A program made the translations under genes and the position numbers. From Bacteroidia bacterium (GTDB lineage: Bacteria > Bacteroidota > Bacteroidia > Bacteroidales > GWF2-35-48): 58,858 nt of DNA. The stretch covers positions 1-58,858 of the forward strand of contig JACREX010000147.1 in NCBI GenBank assembly GCA_016212695.1, in the 5' to 3' direction. Under the pieces are notes generated by a model. That model did not search any database, had not been told where the DNA came from, and saw nothing but the letters and a program-made list of their open reading frames with translations. Shown here piece after piece: positions 8,818-32,260 of the stretch (the stretch's first letter is position 1; every line of letters begins with the position of its first letter).

Positions 8818-11571
8818 GATTTCCTGAATTTTGGATTTTAATATAGTGTTATCACTTTTTAAAATCGTGTTATCGGATTTGAGTTGTGAATTTTCATTTT
8901 TCAATGTTTCGATTTCTTTTTCCTGGTCGTTAATTTTATTATTAAGTGATTTCACAGCTTCCAGAAGAATTGGTGTGAACTTTTCATATGCAACGCTTTT
9001 ATATCCTTCATTGTCTGTAGTAATCAATTCAGGGAATATTTCTTCTATTTCCTGTGCTATTACACCTATCTGGTGGCCTTTAGGAAAATTTTTATCAACG
9101 AATTCCGAATATTTCCAATCATAGCAGACACCTCTGAGTTTACATATTTTTTCAAGTGAGTTTTCAAGGGTAAGGATATTTGTTTTATATCTTACATCAG
9201 ACCAAGTAGCAGAGCCAGCAGTAATTGTAGCGCCATTTGCCCATATTGTGCCCCCGACCTCGAGAGTATACGTTGTAGGCATTCGGTTGATACCTACTCT
9301 GTCGCCTGAAAAGTCGCCTCCAATCAAAGGTGTAGCGCTTGAGGAATTTTCAATATACAGTTTATTAGAGCCTGTTTCATTAAAGCCTGCTTGGTACCCT
9401 ATAAATACATTGGAAGAGCCGCTACTGAGATTTCCAACTTCATAGCCTATATAAGTATTATAATTTCCTGTAGCGTTGTTCTCAGCAGCGAATGTACCTA
9501 TATAAGTATTATACGAACCTGTAGTAGTCCAACGTCCGGCAACATGACCAAAAAATGAGTTTCCATACCCGTTTGCTGCAGCGCCAGCCCAATTTCCGAT
9601 ATATGTATTTTGTGCGCCATTAGTATTTGCAGCGCCGGAATATGTACCCATACACACATTTGAACTCGCAGTAGTATTCGAATATCCTGCATAGTAACCA
9701 ATAAAAATATTATAATGACCAAGAGTATTTGAATAACCACTATTATTTCCCAAGCAAACATTTATAGTGCCAGTTGTATTATTTCGACCTGCTCCATTTC
9801 CAATAAATGCGTTAAAAAAACCAGATGTATTAGAAAACCCTGTACTATCGCCTATAAAAATATTGCTGTATCCATCGGCATTATTATATCCTGTTTTATA
9901 TCCTATAAAATAATTTTTAGAACCTGCTGTAGTTTTGTATCCGCTTTTATAACCGATAAACGAATTATATAAACCGCTGGTAACAGATTTTCCCGCTTCA
10001 TGCCCGATAAAATAGTTATTTGGCGTTAATTGCATATAACTGGTTTTGCTTGAGGCTCCGATATTTTTTACACCAAATCCCATTGTCGTGTCGGTAGTAT
10101 AAATTCGTGTACTGTCAGAATTTATTAACAAAAAATTATTCGTAAATGCTTTTGTAGAACTTTTCCCGCTAACAGCAAAACAGCCTTTGTTCTGTGCTTT
10201 ACTTGGGTCGTCTTTTACAAAAAAATGAACGCTGTCCTGATAAACCACCATTACGGTTTTCCCTGTTTTGTCTTTTATTTCAAACAAAGGTTCCGTATCA
10301 GCCGCGCTTGAGTCAGCCTGTATTTGTAATCTTCCGGAAGGGACAGTTGTCCCAAGGCCAATTCTCGTTCCATTTTGAAACATCAAAGAATTCCCTAAAG
10401 AATTTGAAGAAATAAATTTAGGAATATAATTCGTATCTCCGTCTGAAAAACCTATTACTGGGCTTGACCATATGGCATTACCCAAAGCATCGGATGTTAA
10501 AATTTTGCCTGAACCTTCGCTATCGTCGGTGATTCGTAAGGTACCATTCAGATGCAATGAAGTAGTTGGGCTTGATGTTCCTATTCCTAAGCGTGAATTG
10601 GCATTATCCCAGAACAAATTAGTATTGCCTCCGAATGTTCCATTATTGTTGAATTGTATATTTCCATTTGATCCGCCTGCAGTATAATCCGGATGCGTGT
10701 GATTGCCTTCCGCTATTGTTCCGGCGCTTGTTCCAAAATCTGCGCTGAAGGTTGTTCCATTCATACTTAAACCTGTCCCGGCCTGATACATTGTATTGCT
10801 GTCTGTCGAGTTTATAGTAAAATTCGGATACATACCCGTAACCGTTGTCGCTCCTGTGCCTGATAAAGTAATGGCCTGATCGGGCTCTGTATTTGTGATG
10901 GTTCCTCCCGTAATATCAATTCCTGTTCCTGCATTATAGGTTGTGTTACTATCTGTGGAATGTATGGTGAAACTCGGATACGTACCCGTTACCGTTGTTG
11001 CGCCTGTGCCTGTTAAAGAGATGGTCTGATCAGGGTTTGTGTTGGTAATGGTAAAATCAGGATATGTGCCCGTGACGGATATCCCGCTGCCATTAGTTAA
11101 TGTTACCAACTGGTTTGGCGAAGTATTTTTAATCGTGTCGTTTGAAATACTTATCCCGTTTCCCGCTTTGTAATTGCCGGGCGAATACAGCGCATACGGC
11201 ACAGATAGCAACTGGTTTGTGCCCATTACCGTATAGTTATTCCCTCCGTTTATATCCAATTCAATCTTGATGTAATAGGAATTATTTCCCCACTCTATCG
11301 TTGAAAAATTACCGGACGAATTTGTGCCATTTCCGACTTCGAGGTTTACCAAACCAAAAGGATTGGTAGTTGCAGAATGTTCCTCGGAATATACAGAAGC
11401 GCCTGTAGCGCTTCCCTGCAGAATGTTTATCCTGAAACTTATATCATGGTTTGGAATAACTGTACCGCTGCTGTTACGCACTACAGCCTGATAATTGAAG
11501 GCATGGGGGGATTGTGCAAATATTGTAGCACTAATCAACAAACTGATAACGGAAACTAAAAACTTTTTCAT
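8755..11571 (-). CDS. Paralogous tail-fiber-like / S74 protein
   Basis: Near-identical N-terminal module to the neighbours; repeats; WSDVRYKTNI...IGVIAQEIEEIFPEL. Start moved from 11637 to MKKFLVSVISLLISATIFAQ. Confidence 0.88.
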   Translation of the reverse strand: MKKFLVSVISLLISATIFAQSPHAFNYQAVVRNSSGTVIPNHDISFRINILQGSATGASVYSEEHSATTNPFGLVNLEVGNGTNSSGNFSTIEWGNNSYYIKIELDINGGNNYTVMGTNQLLSVPYALYSPGNYKAGNGISISNDTIKNTSPNQLVTLTNGSGISVTGTYPDFTITNTNPDQTISLTGTGATTVTGTYPSFTIHSTDSNTTYNAGTGIDITGGTITNTEPDQAITLSGTGATTVTGMYPNFTINSTDSNTMYQAGTGLSMNGTTFSADFGTSAGTIAEGNHTHPDYTAGGSNGNIQFNNNGTFGGNTNLFWDNANSRLGIGTSSPTTSLHLNGTLRITDDSEGSGKILTSDALGNAIWSSPVIGFSDGDTNYIPKFISSNSLGNSLMFQNGTRIGLGTTVPSGRLQIQADSSAADTEPLFEIKDKTGKTVMVVYQDSVHFFVKDDPSKAQNKGCFAVSGKSSTKAFTNNFLLINSDSTRIYTTDTTMGFGVKNIGASSKTSYMQLTPNNYFIGHEAGKSVTSGLYNSFIGYKSGYKTTAGSKNYFIGYKTGYNNADGYSNIFIGDSTGFSNTSGFFNAFIGNGAGRNNTTGTINVCLGNNSGYSNTLGHYNIFIGYYAGYSNTTASSNVCMGTYSGAANTNGAQNTYIGNWAGAAANGYGNSFFGHVAGRWTTTGSYNTYIGTFAAENNATGNYNTYIGYEVGNLSSGSSNVFIGYQAGFNETGSNKLYIENSSSATPLIGGDFSGDRVGINRMPTTYTLEVGGTIWANGATITAGSATWSDVRYKTNILTLENSLEKICKLRGVCYDWKYSEFVDKNFPKGHQIGVIAQEIEEIFPELITTDNEGYKSVAYEKFTPILLEAVKSLNNKINDQEKEIETLKNENSQLKSDNTILKSDNTILKSKIQEIDNLKAEIANIKLSIGTSSNK

Positions 11572-11656: not shown

Positions 11657-14600
11657 AATTTCCTGAATTTTGGATTTTAATAAGGTGTTATCATTTTTTA
11701 AAATGGTGTTATCAGATTTTATCAATGTATTTTCCTTTTCGAGATTTTGAATTTTATCATTTAGTTCTTCAATCATTTTCTGCTGTTCCTGCACTGCTTT
11801 TACCAGAGGAACTGTAAATTCTGCATAACGCAAACCATAATAATCTCTTTCATTTTTTGGTTTGTCCACACCGCTGAAATCAAAACCAAGTTCATTGGCT
11901 GCTTTTTCAACATCCTGTGCAACAAATCCTGTTTGCAGTATGGATTCCTTTATTTTTTCAGCGTCAAACAATCGTAACGAATCGGGGGTTTGTAAAAATT
12001 CAGCCAGTTGATTCATATCTAAATGATAGGTTATCGGTTTAAGTTTCATGATAAAAGCAAGGCCCGGCACATTTTCGGCAACATCTTTTTTGAATCGTTT
12101 ATCGGAAAGATTTGTCCATGCCGCATAGCCCCCTATACTGGTAACGGAATTGTTGCCTACTCTGACCTGATTGCTGGCAGTAATGGCAGCGCTGTTACCT
12201 AAAGCAGTGGAGTTTGTATAAGAAGTAGAAACCGGAGAAAAGAATGCTCCGAATCCAAGAGCAGTATTATAATCACCGGTATTGTAATATAATGACCACC
12301 GCCCAATTGCAGTATTTCCATAACCTATACCATAATACATAGCTTGGTCTCCAATTGCAACATTAGAGTTTCCGGTAGTATTACTATACAAAGCAGCATT
12401 TCCTTCGGCAACATTTGAATTACCGGTTGTATTAGAATACATAGCCTGGTAACCGTTAGCTGTATTTTTAGTACCCGTTGTATTAGAATACAAAGCCTGA
12501 TAACCATTTGCAACATGGTATCCTTCAGTATTATTATAAAGCGCCCGATAGCCATTTGCAACATTGTAATTTCCTGCGCCTCCGGTATTAAAATAAAGCG
12601 CCTGATAACCATTAGCAACATTGTTTATTCCTGTTGTGTTTGAATAAAGTGCAAAATAACCATTTGCGGTATTGCCCCATCCTGATGTATTGGAATAACC
12701 TGCCCTGCTGCCAAGGAACACATTGTAGTTTCCATTATTTGTAAATCCTGCAAAAAAACCAAGAAATACATTTTGGTTACCGCCTGTATTTGTGTATCCA
12801 CAACTGTTTCCAATAAAAACATTGCTCTCTCCGGTTGTATTATCCCGGCCTGCCTGGTAACCCATAAATGAATTGTTAGCGCCCGAAGTATTTTGTCTCC
12901 CGGCTTCATACCCTAAGAATACATTGTAGTTTGCATTATTAGTGTATCCGGCATAATAGCCAAGAAATACATTATTATTTCCTGTTGTATTTGTATAACC
13001 CGCCCTGTATCCAAGAGCAACATTCTCATTACCTGAAGAATTACTGTAAAGCGACTGATAACCCATAGCAATATTCCTGTTGCCTGAACTGTTACCTCGT
13101 ATAGCTTCAACACCCACAGCTACATTATATGTCCCAACGGAATTGTAATACAATGAGTTATTCCCCAATGCAACATTATATTCACCGCCTGTATTATATG
13201 CCAGCGACTGATTACCAACAGCTACATTGGAACTCCCTGTATTGGAAATTCCCAAAGCATTTGAACCAACTGCCACGTTACTCTGCCCGTTGCTGTTCCA
13301 GCCCGCAGAATAACCAAGAAAAGTATTGGAGCTGCCATCAATATTATTTTTCCCTGAATTATATCCGACAAATACATTATAATAACCGCTTGTTGTAGCC
13401 AGACCGGTTTCATAACCCATGTAATTATTGTACATACCCGTAGTATTGGCGTTACCCGATTTATATCCAATAAAGTAATTATCAGGAGTAAGTTTCATAT
13501 AACTTGTTTTTGAAGAGACACCGATATTTTTTATACCAAATCCCATTGTCGTGTCGGTAGTATAAATTCGGGTGCTGTCAGGATTTATTAATAAATAATT
13601 ATTGGTAAAACTTTTTGTGTCGCTTTTACCGCTCACTGCAAAACACCCCCTGTTCTGCGCTTTGGCGCCACCCGGGTCTTTCACGAAAAAATGAACGCTG
13701 TCTTTATAAAGCACCATCACCGTCTGCCCGCTTTTGTCTTTTACTTCAAAAATCGGTTCATTATCTAAGGCCGCCAAGTCCTGCTGTATCATGAACCTTC
13801 CCGAAGGCGTGGTGGTGCCGAGCCCGATATAATTTCCATTTTGATATAACAGGGAATTGTCTAAAGAGTTTGCGGAAATGAATTTGGGAATATAATTGGT
13901 ATTACCGTTTGAAGAACCGATTGCCGGAGTTTGCCATGAGCCTACCCCATTGGCATCGGATGTGAATATTTTACCTGCTCCTTCAGAGTCGTCGGTGATT
14001 CGTAAGGTACCGTTCAGATGCAATGAAGCAGTAGGGTTTGATGTTCCTATTCCAAGTCGTGAATTGGCATTATCCCAGAACAAATCAGTATTGCCTCCGA
14101 ATGTTCCATTATTGTTGAATTGCACATTTCCGTTTATTCCGCCTGCCGTATAATCTGAATGAGCGTGATTGCCTTCTGAAACCATACCGGCGCCTGTTCC
14201 GAATACAGCGCTAAAAATGTCGCCTGAAAGCAATAATCCTGTTCCTGCCGAATACGTAGTATTATTATCTGTAGAATTAATGGTGAAATTCGGATACGTA
14301 CCTGTGACCGTTGTTGCGCCCGTACCGTTTAAAGTAATCGCCTGATCGGGATTTGTGTTGGTGATGGAAAAACCGGGATATGTGCCCGTTATGGAAATCC
14401 CATTCCCATTGGTTAAAACTACCGTTTGATCCTGGGCGGTATTAATGATCTGGTTCGAGCCATTAATATTGATACCTGCTCCTGCGCTGTAGGTGGTATT
14501 ATTGTCTGTTGAATTAATAGTATAATTCGGATACGTACCCATGACCGTTGTTGCGCCTGTGCCTGTTAAAGAGATGGTCTGATCGGGGTTTGTGTTGGTA

Positions 14601-28223: not shown

Positions 28224-28412
28224 GTTATTTCTAAACAAATACTTATAACGTAAGAATTTCTGATCCTGTTTGTTTTATAAAAACAAAAATAATGAAATTT
28301 TTATAAACCGAAAGTTGAAGGCTATACATGGCTCGATTTCTAAATAAAAGTTTAAAAAAATTAAAAATGTATTGTCTGAAATCCCGGCACTGGCGCCATT
28401 TTGCACACTTCT

Positions 28413-28514
28413 ATCATCAGCATACTTGCCTGCTGCCTGCCTGCCGGTAGGCAAGCAAGCAGGTATGCGTAGCATTAGCTTTATCAATCCCTGCAAAAAT
28501 GCGGCTTGCACGAT
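28413..28514. repeat. 102-bp direct repeat (copy C), attC-like, downstream of the ALDH gene
   Basis: 100/102 identical to 30000-30101. Confidence 0.92.
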
Positions 28515-28526
28515 TAGGTGTTCGTA

Positions 28527-29894
28527 TTAAAGCCTCATTAATCTTTTTAACCATGTTAGTTTTTTTTCTGTATTTGGTGGATATCTTAAATTAGGTTCTA
28601 ACCAAAATGGTTTGTCAATAATACTTTTAAAATGAGAAAATGCAATAAATCCGGCATAGCCGTGATAATTACCAAGCCCGCTGTTTCCAATACCGCCAAA
28701 TGGTAAATTGCTATTAGTAATATGCATCATGGCATCATTTACTGCTCCTCCGCCAAATGATATATCCTTCAATAATTTATTTTTAATAGCAATATCGTTT
28801 GTAAAGATATAGCAAGCTAACGGTTTAGGTCTATATTTTATTTCTAAAATGGCATGATTCAAATCGGAATATGAAATTACTGGTAGTATTGGGCCAAATA
28901 TTTCATCTTCCATTACTTTGTCATCAAAAGTCACATCTGTTAATATTGTTGGGGCGATATAACGCTTTTGAAGATCGACTTCGCCACCATAATATATTTT
29001 CTTTTTATCAATTAATTCGATTAAACGATAAAAGTTTCGTTCGTTTATAATTTGAACATAATTGTTGTTTTCAAATGAATATTCAAATTTCCGGATGTAG
29101 TCTTTTAAGTGAATAAGAAATTCTTTTTTAACAGCTTCATCTACCAATATATAATCAGGAGCAATACATGTTTGGCCAGAATTTAAAAATTTTGCCCAAA
29201 CTAAACGCTTTGCAGATTCTTTTAGGTTACAATTCATAGTAACTAATGCAGGACTTTTCCCTCCTAATTCAAGTGTTACAGGTGTCAGATTTTTTGCTGC
29301 TGCTTGATATATAATTTTGCCAACCGGACTACTTCCGGTAAAAAATATTTTGTCGAAATTTTGTTTAAGAAGCTCTGTGGTTTCAAGTATTCCTCCTTCT
29401 ACTACTATCATGAATTCCGGAGAAAAATTTTCATTAATTAGCTTTGCCATTATTGCACTTGTAGCAGAAGGAATTTCGCTGGGCTTTAGAACAACTGTAT
29501 TACCTGATGCAATTGCAGCTACTACTGGAGAGAGTGATAGTAGATAAGGATAGTTCCATGCTCCAATAATCAAACATACTCCTAATGGTTCAGGAATAAT
29601 ATAACTTCGCGCTGGTAGATTTATAAGATTAGTTTTAGTTCTTCTTCGTTTAGCCCATTTGGGCAGTTTATTTATAAATTCATCAATTTCATGGTAGATA
29701 AAACTCAATTCTGTCGTGTAGGTATCAAATTCAGATTTCTTAAAATCACTATAAATCGCCTCATATAAAGCCATTTCATAACCCATTACAACAGACTTGA
29801 GCTTTACTAATTGTTTAATTCTAAAGACAACATCTTTGGTTTGATTAGAATTGAAATAATCAGTTTGATTTTTTACGATTTCATTATAATTCAT
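28527..29894 (-). CDS. Aldehyde dehydrogenase family protein (ALDH3-like)
   Basis: 455 aa; GAWNYP, LELGGKSPALV, NSGQTCIAPDY, LPFGGIGNSG motifs. Confidence 0.95.
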   Translation of the reverse strand: MNYNEIVKNQTDYFNSNQTKDVVFRIKQLVKLKSVVMGYEMALYEAIYSDFKKSEFDTYTTELSFIYHEIDEFINKLPKWAKRRRTKTNLINLPARSYIIPEPLGVCLIIGAWNYPYLLSLSPVVAAIASGNTVVLKPSEIPSATSAIMAKLINENFSPEFMIVVEGGILETTELLKQNFDKIFFTGSSPVGKIIYQAAAKNLTPVTLELGGKSPALVTMNCNLKESAKRLVWAKFLNSGQTCIAPDYILVDEAVKKEFLIHLKDYIRKFEYSFENNNYVQIINERNFYRLIELIDKKKIYYGGEVDLQKRYIAPTILTDVTFDDKVMEDEIFGPILPVISYSDLNHAILEIKYRPKPLACYIFTNDIAIKNKLLKDISFGGGAVNDAMMHITNSNLPFGGIGNSGLGNYHGYAGFIAFSHFKSIIDKPFWLEPNLRYPPNTEKKLTWLKRLMRL

Positions 29895-29960
29895 ATGATT
29901 TTCAATTTTTACAAAGTTGCATTAGATTTCTGAACTCAGGCAGGCTTTGCTCAACTGGTT

Positions 29961-30111
29961 TCTAACGGTACTCGCATAGGCGACGTGCCACATACAATAA
30001 TCATCAGCGTACTTGCCTGCTGCCTGCCTGCCGGTAGGCAAGCAAGCAGGTATGTGTAGCATTAGCTTTATCAATCCCTGCAAAAATGCGGCTTGCACGA
30101 TGTCAGGGGGC
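29961..30111. repeat. Direct repeat copy B, attC-like palindrome between ALDH and AbiEii-like genes
   Basis: TCTAACGG...GGCGACGTGCCACATAC...GTATGTGTAGCA; contains the 102-bp repeat. Confidence 0.85.
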
Positions 30112-30144
30112 GTTTTATTAATCGTGAAATTTATTATTATAGAA

Positions 30145-30777
30145 TCAAACGTACTCTTTAACTTTTATTTGTATGAATTGTTTTATTTCATCCCAAGAAC
30201 ATTTTTTTAAACACTTTGGGCTAATGTCATTCTCTGCATCTTCAAAATATGTGAGACTTTTTATCACATAAAAATTATTGTAATTAGAGAACTTTTGCTC
30301 AAAGGATGAAATCATCTCTTTTAAAGTATATTCCTGTAAGAGAAAATAAATATCGTAGAAGTCTTTTTTTGCTCCTCTATTTGCAATAGCTGCTAATTTC
30401 ATCGGAATTATATCTTCCTTAGATAATAAGCGAATCCCATCAATATTTAATGGAGGATTTATTAATTGGTAAGAATATTTTACTATATCTACTTTGATAT
30501 AATTATTTGAATTCTCAGGATAAGCTATTTTTTGATTAAGTCCTCCTTTATTTTCTGATACATCTTGCAATTGATAATGTTGTTCTAATAGCATTCTTAT
30601 TTCTGATGGATTAAATATTTTATCTGTGAATAAATCCAAATCAACGGATATTCTATGTCCTAATTGTAAACCTAAAGCAGTTCCACCGACTAAATTAAAA
30701 TCTGTCAGAAAATATTGCTGCATTAAGCTCTTTAATAATTCCAAAGTTCTTTTGTCGATGGCGGTATATTGTAGCAT
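30145..30777 (-). CDS. Nucleotidyltransferase, AbiEii/AbiGii toxin-like
   Basis: GGTALGLQLGHRISVDLDLFTD nucleotidyltransferase signature. Confidence 0.85.
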   Translation of the reverse strand: MLQYTAIDKRTLELLKSLMQQYFLTDFNLVGGTALGLQLGHRISVDLDLFTDKIFNPSEIRMLLEQHYQLQDVSENKGGLNQKIAYPENSNNYIKVDIVKYSYQLINPPLNIDGIRLLSKEDIIPMKLAAIANRGAKKDFYDIYFLLQEYTLKEMISSFEQKFSNYNNFYVIKSLTYFEDAENDISPKCLKKCSWDEIKQFIQIKVKEYV

Positions 30778-31016
30778 TTGAACTCAGTTTTTGATATATT
30801 AAAATAAATACTGCAAAAATTTAATGTTTTTTGGTCTAAATATCTCATCTTAATAATTTCCTGTTTTATTCTCTCTAAACCATAATAACTCTTTAATTCC
30901 TGCCAATCTTTTATAGTACCTCTCAATAATACACGATTAATGATGAATTGAGAATATTTTTGATAGTCAATATTATTAAAATCCACGTCCCAAAATAATG
31001 AAATATCAATGTTCAT
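30732..31016 (-). CDS. Small protein overlapping the AbiEii-like gene; possible antitoxin partner
   Basis: 94 aa, overlaps the next gene by 46 bp in operon order; no recognised motif, role inferred from position. Confidence 0.6.
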   Translation of the reverse strand: MNIDISLFWDVDFNNIDYQKYSQFIINRVLLRGTIKDWQELKSYYGLERIKQEIIKMRYLDQKTLNFCSIYFNISKTEFKCYNIPPSTKELWNY

Positions 31017-31095
31017 TTTATAATATTTTTAAGTCTTTAAGTATTACTATAGCTGACTTGTACAAAGATAATTATAATATTGTTATTTTCAAAAT

Positions 31096-31192
31096 GCCCC
31101 CTAACGGCCCGCTGGCAGGCGACGTGCCACACACCATAAATCATCAGCGTATATCCGCCAGTTGGCGGATTAGCTTTTCAATACGTGTGGCA
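31096..31192. repeat. Related attC-like palindrome copy A upstream of the AbiEii-like pair
   Basis: CCCTAACGG...GGCGACGTGCCACAC...GTGTGGCA with inner ATCCGCCAgtTGGCGGAT hairpin; TGCCACAC/GTGTGGCA perfect inverted arms. Confidence 0.8.
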
Positions 31193-31312
31193 TTTTTCTT
31201 ATGCTTTGGTTATTAATCCTCCGTTGTTTCTGTATCAATAGGAAATCTGATATTATTTATTTGTATTATTAATTTGTCCCCAAATACTACTCTTTTATTC
31301 AAACTTAAAAAA

Positions 31313-31849
31313 CCACCTTCAAAGAAGGTGGTCATGTTTTTAATAGCTTTGCTCAAAAATAAATATGAGCAAATATAAGAAAATATCACACGTAATCTAT
31401 TATCATGTTTTTCATATAGTATGGACACCAAAATATAGATACAGAGTATTATCAGGTCCCCTAAAGGAATTTGTAGAAGAGTCCGTCCGAATGCTATGTG
31501 AGTGGAAAAGAGTAGAAATATTGGAATTAAATATACAACCAGATCATGTTCACATTGTAGTATTTGTAGAGCCGAAGTTGTCAACATCAAATTTCATGGG
31601 GATCTTAAAAGGTAAGACTGCCATAAAAATATTTAAAAGTTTTCCAGGGTTGAAAAAGAAACCATACTGGGGAAATCATTTTTGGTCAAGAGGATATTGT
31701 TCAAGTACTGTCGGTTTAGATGAGGAGAAAATAAGAAAATATGTCAAATACCAAGAAGAACAGGAAAAGTTATATGAACAGGAGCAAGGGTCATTCGATT
31801 TTTGAGCCCTATGGGCTCTTTCTCACAAAGCCACCTTCTAAGAAGGTGG
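31313..31849. mobile_element. IS200/IS605-type insertion element bounded by matching hairpins
   Basis: Left hairpin CCACCTTCaaaGAAGGTGG (31313-31331), right hairpin CCACCTTCtaaGAAGGTGG (31831-31849), transposase between. Exact cleavage ends not determined. Confidence 0.85.
31365..31805 (+). CDS. tnpA: IS200/IS605 family HUH (Y1) transposase TnpA
   Basis: 146 aa; HIVWTPKYRYRVL, PDHVHIVV HUH motif, YVKYQ Tyr region. Confidence 0.95.
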   Translation: MSKYKKISHVIYYHVFHIVWTPKYRYRVLSGPLKEFVEESVRMLCEWKRVEILELNIQPDHVHIVVFVEPKLSTSNFMGILKGKTAIKIFKSFPGLKKKPYWGNHFWSRGYCSSTVGLDEEKIRKYVKYQEEQEKLYEQEQGSFDF

Positions 31850-32260
31850 ATTCTTTACTTCGTAATCAAAAAATTTATAATTTTTTTTTGCAAAGGCAAC
31901 AATATGTCCGTCCGGATCGCTGACATAAGCTACGCAGTCGCCCCAGTCGCGCGGAAGGGGTTCGCTCACTGCTTTTGCGCCGGCATCTATAGCTCTTGTA
32001 AAACAAGATTCAACTGCATCCACATACAGGTACAGCTCGCACCTGGGAATACCGTTTCCCGCAGAAGGATGAGGCGTTTTATCCTGCAATATTTTGGCAA
32101 TGCTTTTTTCTGGCATAAGGCCTAATTTGCAGTCGCCGGATAATTGAAACTCTGTCATCCCGGGAACATCCAGAACCGGGTCTGACTGTAGCGCCTGTTT
32201 GTAAAAATTCCTGCTTTTCTGCTGGTCTGCTACATACAGGATGAATTCGATTTTTGTCAT
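31838..32260 (-). CDS. VOC (glyoxalase/bleomycin resistance-like) family protein
   Basis: 140 aa; MTKIEFILYVADQQKSRNFYKQAL...VSDPDGHIVAF. C-terminal tail reads into the IS end. Confidence 0.88.
   Translation of the reverse strand: MTKIEFILYVADQQKSRNFYKQALQSDPVLDVPGMTEFQLSGDCKLGLMPEKSIAKILQDKTPHPSAGNGIPRCELYLYVDAVESCFTRAIDAGAKAVSEPLPRDWGDCVAYVSDPDGHIVAFAKKNYKFFDYEVKNPPS

Follow-up and report, generated by a model that had tools for sequence, protein, structure and literature searches.

In the window, i.e. the whole stretch of 58,858 nucleotides of Bacteroidia DNA that was analysed, an aldehyde dehydrogenase (ALDH) gene and an AbiEii-type gene pair are accompanied by palindromic repeats (28,371-31,214). 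The question raised by this locus is whether the repeats are attC sites of integron cassettes and, if so, to which recombinase they belong. The first-pass annotation had described them as attC-like and had left a choice between a CALIN-like array and a distinct cassette system. Sequence comparisons indicate that the region is very probably a decayed two-cassette array of an integron-type system of Bacteroidota. Both halves of the earlier proposal hold: the sites are of the attC type and the recombinase is not a classical one.

Attachment sites and cassettes in the window

The direct repeats at 28413-28514 and 30000-30101 comprise 102 nt and are 98% identical (100/102), so that the coordinates and identity given before were reproduced. 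A third related site had also been noted, and a partly related copy indeed starts at 31101: the arrangement CTAACGG-N10-GGCGACGTGCCACA is present at 29962 and 31101 (39 nt, 77% identity), and these two are the only exact copies of the core GGCGACGTGCCACA in the 4.03-Mb genome. The 102-bp repeat is thus real but is not the natural unit, the full sites and a remnant having the extents listed in Table 1. For scoring we used a genus-level covariance model (CM R2) whose training sites came from other genomes only, the genome of the window being excluded. The general attC model R1 gave no match to the window sites, which are matched by the genus-level R2 alone, and an Rfam scan of the window matched nothing. 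Site 1 aligns full-length with a chain-confirmed site in genome G295 (L075:17334-17453), and the window sites also align over their full length with relatives from another public genome and from a genome of the same genus. Because of the full-length match to two other genomes and the training of the model without this genome, chance is ruled out as the origin of the sites. With this custom model, two strong sites and one remnant lie within 2.9 kb, which places the region under the CALIN definition, where two or more attC occur in 4 kb without an integrase next to them. Folding of the window sites as single-stranded DNA is weak (z of -1.2 and -2.0), compared with a z of -3.6 for the intact site of a relative. 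In public genomes, the pattern TAACGN{6,16}GGCGACGTGCCAC was found at 26 loci, among which there is one genuine relative (two loci on one contig); the other loci of this search were dismissed as chance matches, two viral loci being also chance-like.

Table 1. Coordinates of the attachment sites, cassettes, genes and embedded or adjoining elements in the window.
Feature	Position	Strand	Basis or remark
attC site 1, upstream edge of the array	31094..31214	-	CM R2 47.6 bits, E 2.4e-8
attC site 2	29955..30113	-	CM R2 46.8 bits, E 3.6e-8
attC site 3, remnant	28371..28524	-	CM R2 24.2 bits, E 0.007; holds repeat 28413-28514
Cassette 1: DUF6922 and AbiEii nucleotidyltransferase	30102..31105	-	starts G^TTAGGGGGC, ends GCCCCCTGAC
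DUF6922 gene	30732-31016	-	Pfam DUF6922 6.5e-21
AbiEii nucleotidyltransferase gene	30145-30777	-	Pfam AbiEii 1.4e-16
Cassette 2: aldehyde dehydrogenase (28527-29894)	28515..29966	-	sequence
REP-like palindrome TTGCCTGC...GCAGGCAA	30016-30052 and 28429-28465		inserted in attC loops
IS200-type transposase	31365..31805	+	Pfam Y1_Tnp 4.7e-38

Read on the gene strand, the order is attC, DUF6922/AbiEii cassette, attC, ALDH cassette and attC remnant, with ALDH, AbiEii and DUF6922 all on the minus strand, in agreement with the single gene orientation described earlier. In an integron cassette the R'' and R' of attC pair only in the circular form, and self-complementary ends define such cassettes. The R' of site 1 (31096-31105) is GTTAGGGGGC and the site end on the gene strand reads GGGCC^GTTAGGGGGC. 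This start of cassette 1 is complementary at 9/10 positions to the cassette's own end (GCCCCCTGAC-AT-CGTGC) and hence bears the integron-cassette signature. The R'' of site 1 itself (about 31209-31216, TTAATAAC) derives from an upstream cassette that has been lost. In site 2, R'' is at 30102-30111 and R' at 29957-29966 (GTTAGAAACC). The ends of the ALDH cassette, GTTAGAAACC and ACACCTAAT, are unpaired; since they are no longer complementary, we regard this cassette as decayed. The R' half of site 3 is gone, its left half and loop being retained.

At the centre of the 102-bp repeat, the loop of the site contains a G+C-rich palindrome, a REP-like element in its own right whose core has tens of other short matches genome-wide. 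This genuine palindrome, embedded in two sites, could lead one to read the repeats as intergenic palindromes of the REP or terminator kind, in an ordinary gene order. Nevertheless, we consider that reading extremely improbable, as the REP part is missing from homologous sites in other genomes, the rest of the site has covarying arms and cassette-specific complementary ends, and the OTC-M20 neighbourhood of a sister species is without these genes. The earlier annotation had also asked whether the synteny of ALDH and AbiEii is conserved in relatives devoid of the repeats; a same-genus relative keeps the OTC-M20 pair without either cassette.

An IS200-type element (about 31299-31857), overlooked in the first-pass annotation, adjoins the array and has its own hairpins at both ends. 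As these hairpins differ from the window sites, the candidate explanation that the sites are the ends of this Y1 transposase element was rejected.

Recombinase-headed arrays in related genomes and apparent decay in the genome of the window

It had been considered that the repeats might not flank genes elsewhere; in other genomes they do. Along five adjacent sites in a genome of the same genus (G090), the 9-mer at the start of a cassette matched the one at its end exactly in 4/4 cases, and the 9-mers vary between cassettes. Two contigs of this genome share their first 95 nt and split exactly at ^GTTAGAAAC, one of them continuing into attC and the other into a short sequence that immediately follows a tyrosine recombinase gene. 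As the shared cassette is preceded by either attC or the recombinase-adjacent sequence, the latter represents attI. In the complete genome G223, a recombinase-headed array showed 9/9 matches in 11/14 neighbouring pairs, while the other three pairs hold an extra short attC; matches to the attC model span >50 kb. The attI motif, TATAAACAA with up to 2 changes followed by GTT, was searched for within 600 nt of the recombinase stop codon at 59 loci and was found downstream of the stop in 47/59 and upstream in 0/59, against 3.5 on average and 8 at most in shuffled downstream sequence. We draw the cut as TATAAACAA^GTT, often preceded by a palindrome such as GTCTGATGATGTCAGAC; about one fifth of the integrase loci are without a recognisable attI.

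A generic hairpin scan around the integrases was too noisy, and the arrays were resolved by the own-end test of the cassettes. Walks from attI by own-end complementarity gave cassettes in at least 16 genomes and in a Chryseobacterium plasmid. The ends were exact (9/9) in 42 of 47 cassettes (median length 995 bp) and the longest ORF was in the array sense in 41/45, counts that include two cassettes (L190) walked from a spurious start. In the Chryseobacterium plasmid array (L217, NZ_CP041688.1), a gene-less 101-bp cassette recurs at 8951-9051, 11046-11146 and about 13430-13530, which hints that it has moved recently. In an alignment of 38 attC, AAC and GTT do not vary, and compensatory changes are seen in 12 of the 13 pairs that make up the stem. 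The sites are therefore assigned to the attC type by self-complementary cassette ends, a covarying hairpin and one cassette orientation, where the first annotation had noted a likeness. It had also found the arm spacing unusual: the spacers are asymmetric, with 1-2 nt beside R'' and 4-6 nt beside R', and the R stem reaches about 15 nt, both features differing from integrons.

The Y1 transposase adjoining the array, together with cassette ends that resemble terminal inverted repeats of 9-15 nt, could suggest that the repeats are transposon ends (IS200/IS605-like or TIR) and that the genes were carried by transposition. However, the ends of neighbouring cassettes differ and each fits its own partner only, a pattern not expected from a sequence-specific transposase; the hairpins of the Y1 element are different ones of its own, and the starting point of the arrays is a fixed attI next to a tyrosine recombinase, making transposition a very improbable explanation. 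In the integron-type system that we favour, a tyrosine recombinase of its own clade would recombine a double-stranded attI, located close behind the recombinase gene, with cassette attC, which is predicted to fold into a long hairpin on one strand and to be cut before the TTA of GTTA. Circular cassettes would enter at attI and stack into a co-oriented array, each retaining 9-15 nt through which its two ends are complementary. The sequences themselves show the sites, their boundaries, the complementarity and covariation, the position of attI and the disruption of the integrase; the folded strand, the cut position and the chemistry in this scheme are predictions, and the link between integrase and attC is suggested by their adjacency and conservation.

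In the window's genome, a search with the integron-integrase model gave no match on the contig of the window, in accordance with the absence of IntI remarked on before. An orthologue of the recombinase is present at C181:114-1049, where the N-terminal part is kept and the gene then enters a sequence found eight times in the assembly, i.e. an insertion element. The C-terminal part was not found in this assembly (90.5% complete), and neither was attI in the genome. At E 0.1, 5 sites were detected in the species of the window versus at least 67 in a same-genus species with an intact integrase. With few sites and an integrase cut by a multicopy insertion element, the species looks decayed for this system. 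The insertion element has broken the integrase gene and would thereby have left the AbiEii and ALDH cassettes stranded. In view of the unpaired ALDH ends, the half-lost site 3, the few sites and the broken integrase, the region is best read as stranded, decaying, CALIN-like cassettes. Another cassette in this genome, on contig C169, has exact 9/9 ends (GTTATGGGC/GCCCATAAC). In addition, a fourth attC-like site on contig C149 (G000:C149:9678-11303, L071; CM R2 E 0.004) is followed by a co-oriented Fic-domain gene, probably another stranded cassette.

The recombinase and its relation to integron integrases

Integrons have been thought to require IntI with a dedicated extra helix for single-stranded attC hairpins. 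The recombinase described here aligns with archaeal XerA across the whole catalytic part, and its alignment with IntI4 (2A3V) falls into two pieces, with 32 residues in place of 74. The IntI-specific insert is missing and the score lies below the TIGR02249 integron-integrase cut-off. An unrooted tree of 80 sequences has separate clades for the 13 canonical IntI of the phylum (100/100), for the host Xer proteins (100/98) and for the new enzymes (81/87), the last of which includes array-linked members together with tet(X3)-linked and blaVEB-3-linked fragments. Because of the missing insert, the sub-cut-off score and the separate clade, the enzyme falls outside canonical IntI as judged by the test that we used, IntI with a specific additional domain around patch III (PMC9668308). 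With XerA, XerC and XerD (NCBIfam NF040815, PDB 4A8E) it has in common a catalytic domain without the IntI insert, but the new enzymes form a separate clade linked to cassette arrays, and the N-terminus of some is extended by up to about 200 residues. The name at NCBI for the plasmid members is 'site-specific tyrosine recombinase/integron integrase'.

The system shares with integrons a tyrosine recombinase whose gene adjoins the primary site, cassettes that face one way, and attC in which GTT/AAC cores are combined with hairpin folding and with R'/R'' pairing specific to each cassette; a cargo of toxin-antitoxin, defence and unknown genes and integrase-less clusters are also common to both. 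Among the features that mark a canonical integron we found attI beside the integrase, a covarying attC hairpin, self-complementary cassettes and co-orientation. In contrast to integrons, the Bacteroidota integrase is without the IntI-specific insert and in its own clade, and attI, a palindrome plus TATAAACAA^GTT, is located at the 3' end of the integrase gene and reads into the array. On the evidence of its sequences, the system functions in the manner of an integron, but its enzyme does not pass the IntI test.

Since classical integrons likewise have GTT/AAC cores and co-oriented cassettes, and canonical IntI is frequent in other parts of the phylum (84/297 genomes), the sites might be regarded as ordinary attC of canonical IntI integrons, with the window a classical CALIN and the Xer-like recombinase incidental. 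This is unlikely, since nearly all IntI carriers are outside the class of the window, the surroundings of IntI that were examined in G338, G588 and G301 held no cassette arrays, arrays in many IntI-less genomes start right at attI beside the other recombinase, and the array-linked recombinase has no IntI insert.

Distribution, resistance-gene plasmids and cargo

The integron-type system is widespread in Bacteroidota. In the order, 65/295 genomes have homologues of the recombinase, and a second query detected them in 49/396 genomes of the phylum; a search for integrase homologues in phages found none. At E 1e-3, the attC model built from the 38-site alignment has matches in 191 of the 295 genomes sampled from the order, i.e. 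about two thirds, and the numbers of sites from this search are lower bounds, no more than 10 candidates per genome being scored. Many genomes have attC matches and no close integrase match, at thresholds that differ for the two. We also observed several to many attC matches in, for example, G024:C3, G213:C1 and G073:C38, some of them distant from a recognised integrase. The IntegronFinder 2.0 survey reported one complete integron in Bacteroidetes proper, in Salinibacter (PMC9024848), and our full-text search of the open literature found no description of this Bacteroidota system.

The recombinase is also found next to genes for resistance to tigecycline, tet(X3), and to beta-lactams, blaVEB-3. 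A plasmid search with the recombinase identified 'xerD/tpnF' directly upstream of tet(X3) in Acinetobacter (L225, NZ_CP041297.1 4929-7058; L226, FJ012881.1) and a fragment about 110 nt upstream of blaVEB-3 in Klebsiella (L219, NZ_CP084417.1 4133-5754; L227, CP006657.1). On the 5' side of tet(X3) there is an attI-like palindrome, ATACGCCATTTGGCGTATAGCCACTT^GTTATGTGCC, with GTTATG preceding the gene, and on the 3' side an attC-like left half, CTAAC-AAGCAGTTTTGCAATAGTGGGG; the two ends pair at only 7/10 positions. Similarly, an attI-like palindrome, CGAATATTTTATTCGGATATTAGGGA^GTTAGCG, lies between the recombinase fragment and blaVEB-3, its core departing from the consensus at 4/9 positions. PMC8635130 presents the tet(X3) region as ISCR2-xerD-tet(X3)-res-ISCR2, and no integron interpretation of xerD was seen in that description. 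Our analysis places the xerD/tpnF of this Acinetobacter tet(X3)-ISCR2 region in the new clade. On balance we lean towards the view that Bacteroidota harbour a second, previously undescribed integron class, overlooked by standard surveys, with a recombinase without the IntI-specific domain and an attI/attC grammar of its own, from which tet(X3) and blaVEB-3 reached clinical plasmids as first cassettes together with a piece of the integrase. If true, an insert-less recombinase clade running large arrays would represent another solution to folded-site recombination, and the system may explain the origin of both resistance genes.

The cargo ranges from phage defence and toxin-antitoxin genes even to a diversity-generating retroelement. 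Cassettes elsewhere hold a type VI retron reverse transcriptase, type II methyltransferases and a HigB-like/HTH pair. In G295 (L075, G295:C58 12441-17388), the retroelement and a caspase gene are contained within one cassette of about 5 kb with complementary ends. This retroelement consists of a reverse transcriptase, a template repeat and a target of the formylglycine-enzyme fold, in which 16/17 substitutions are at template adenines.
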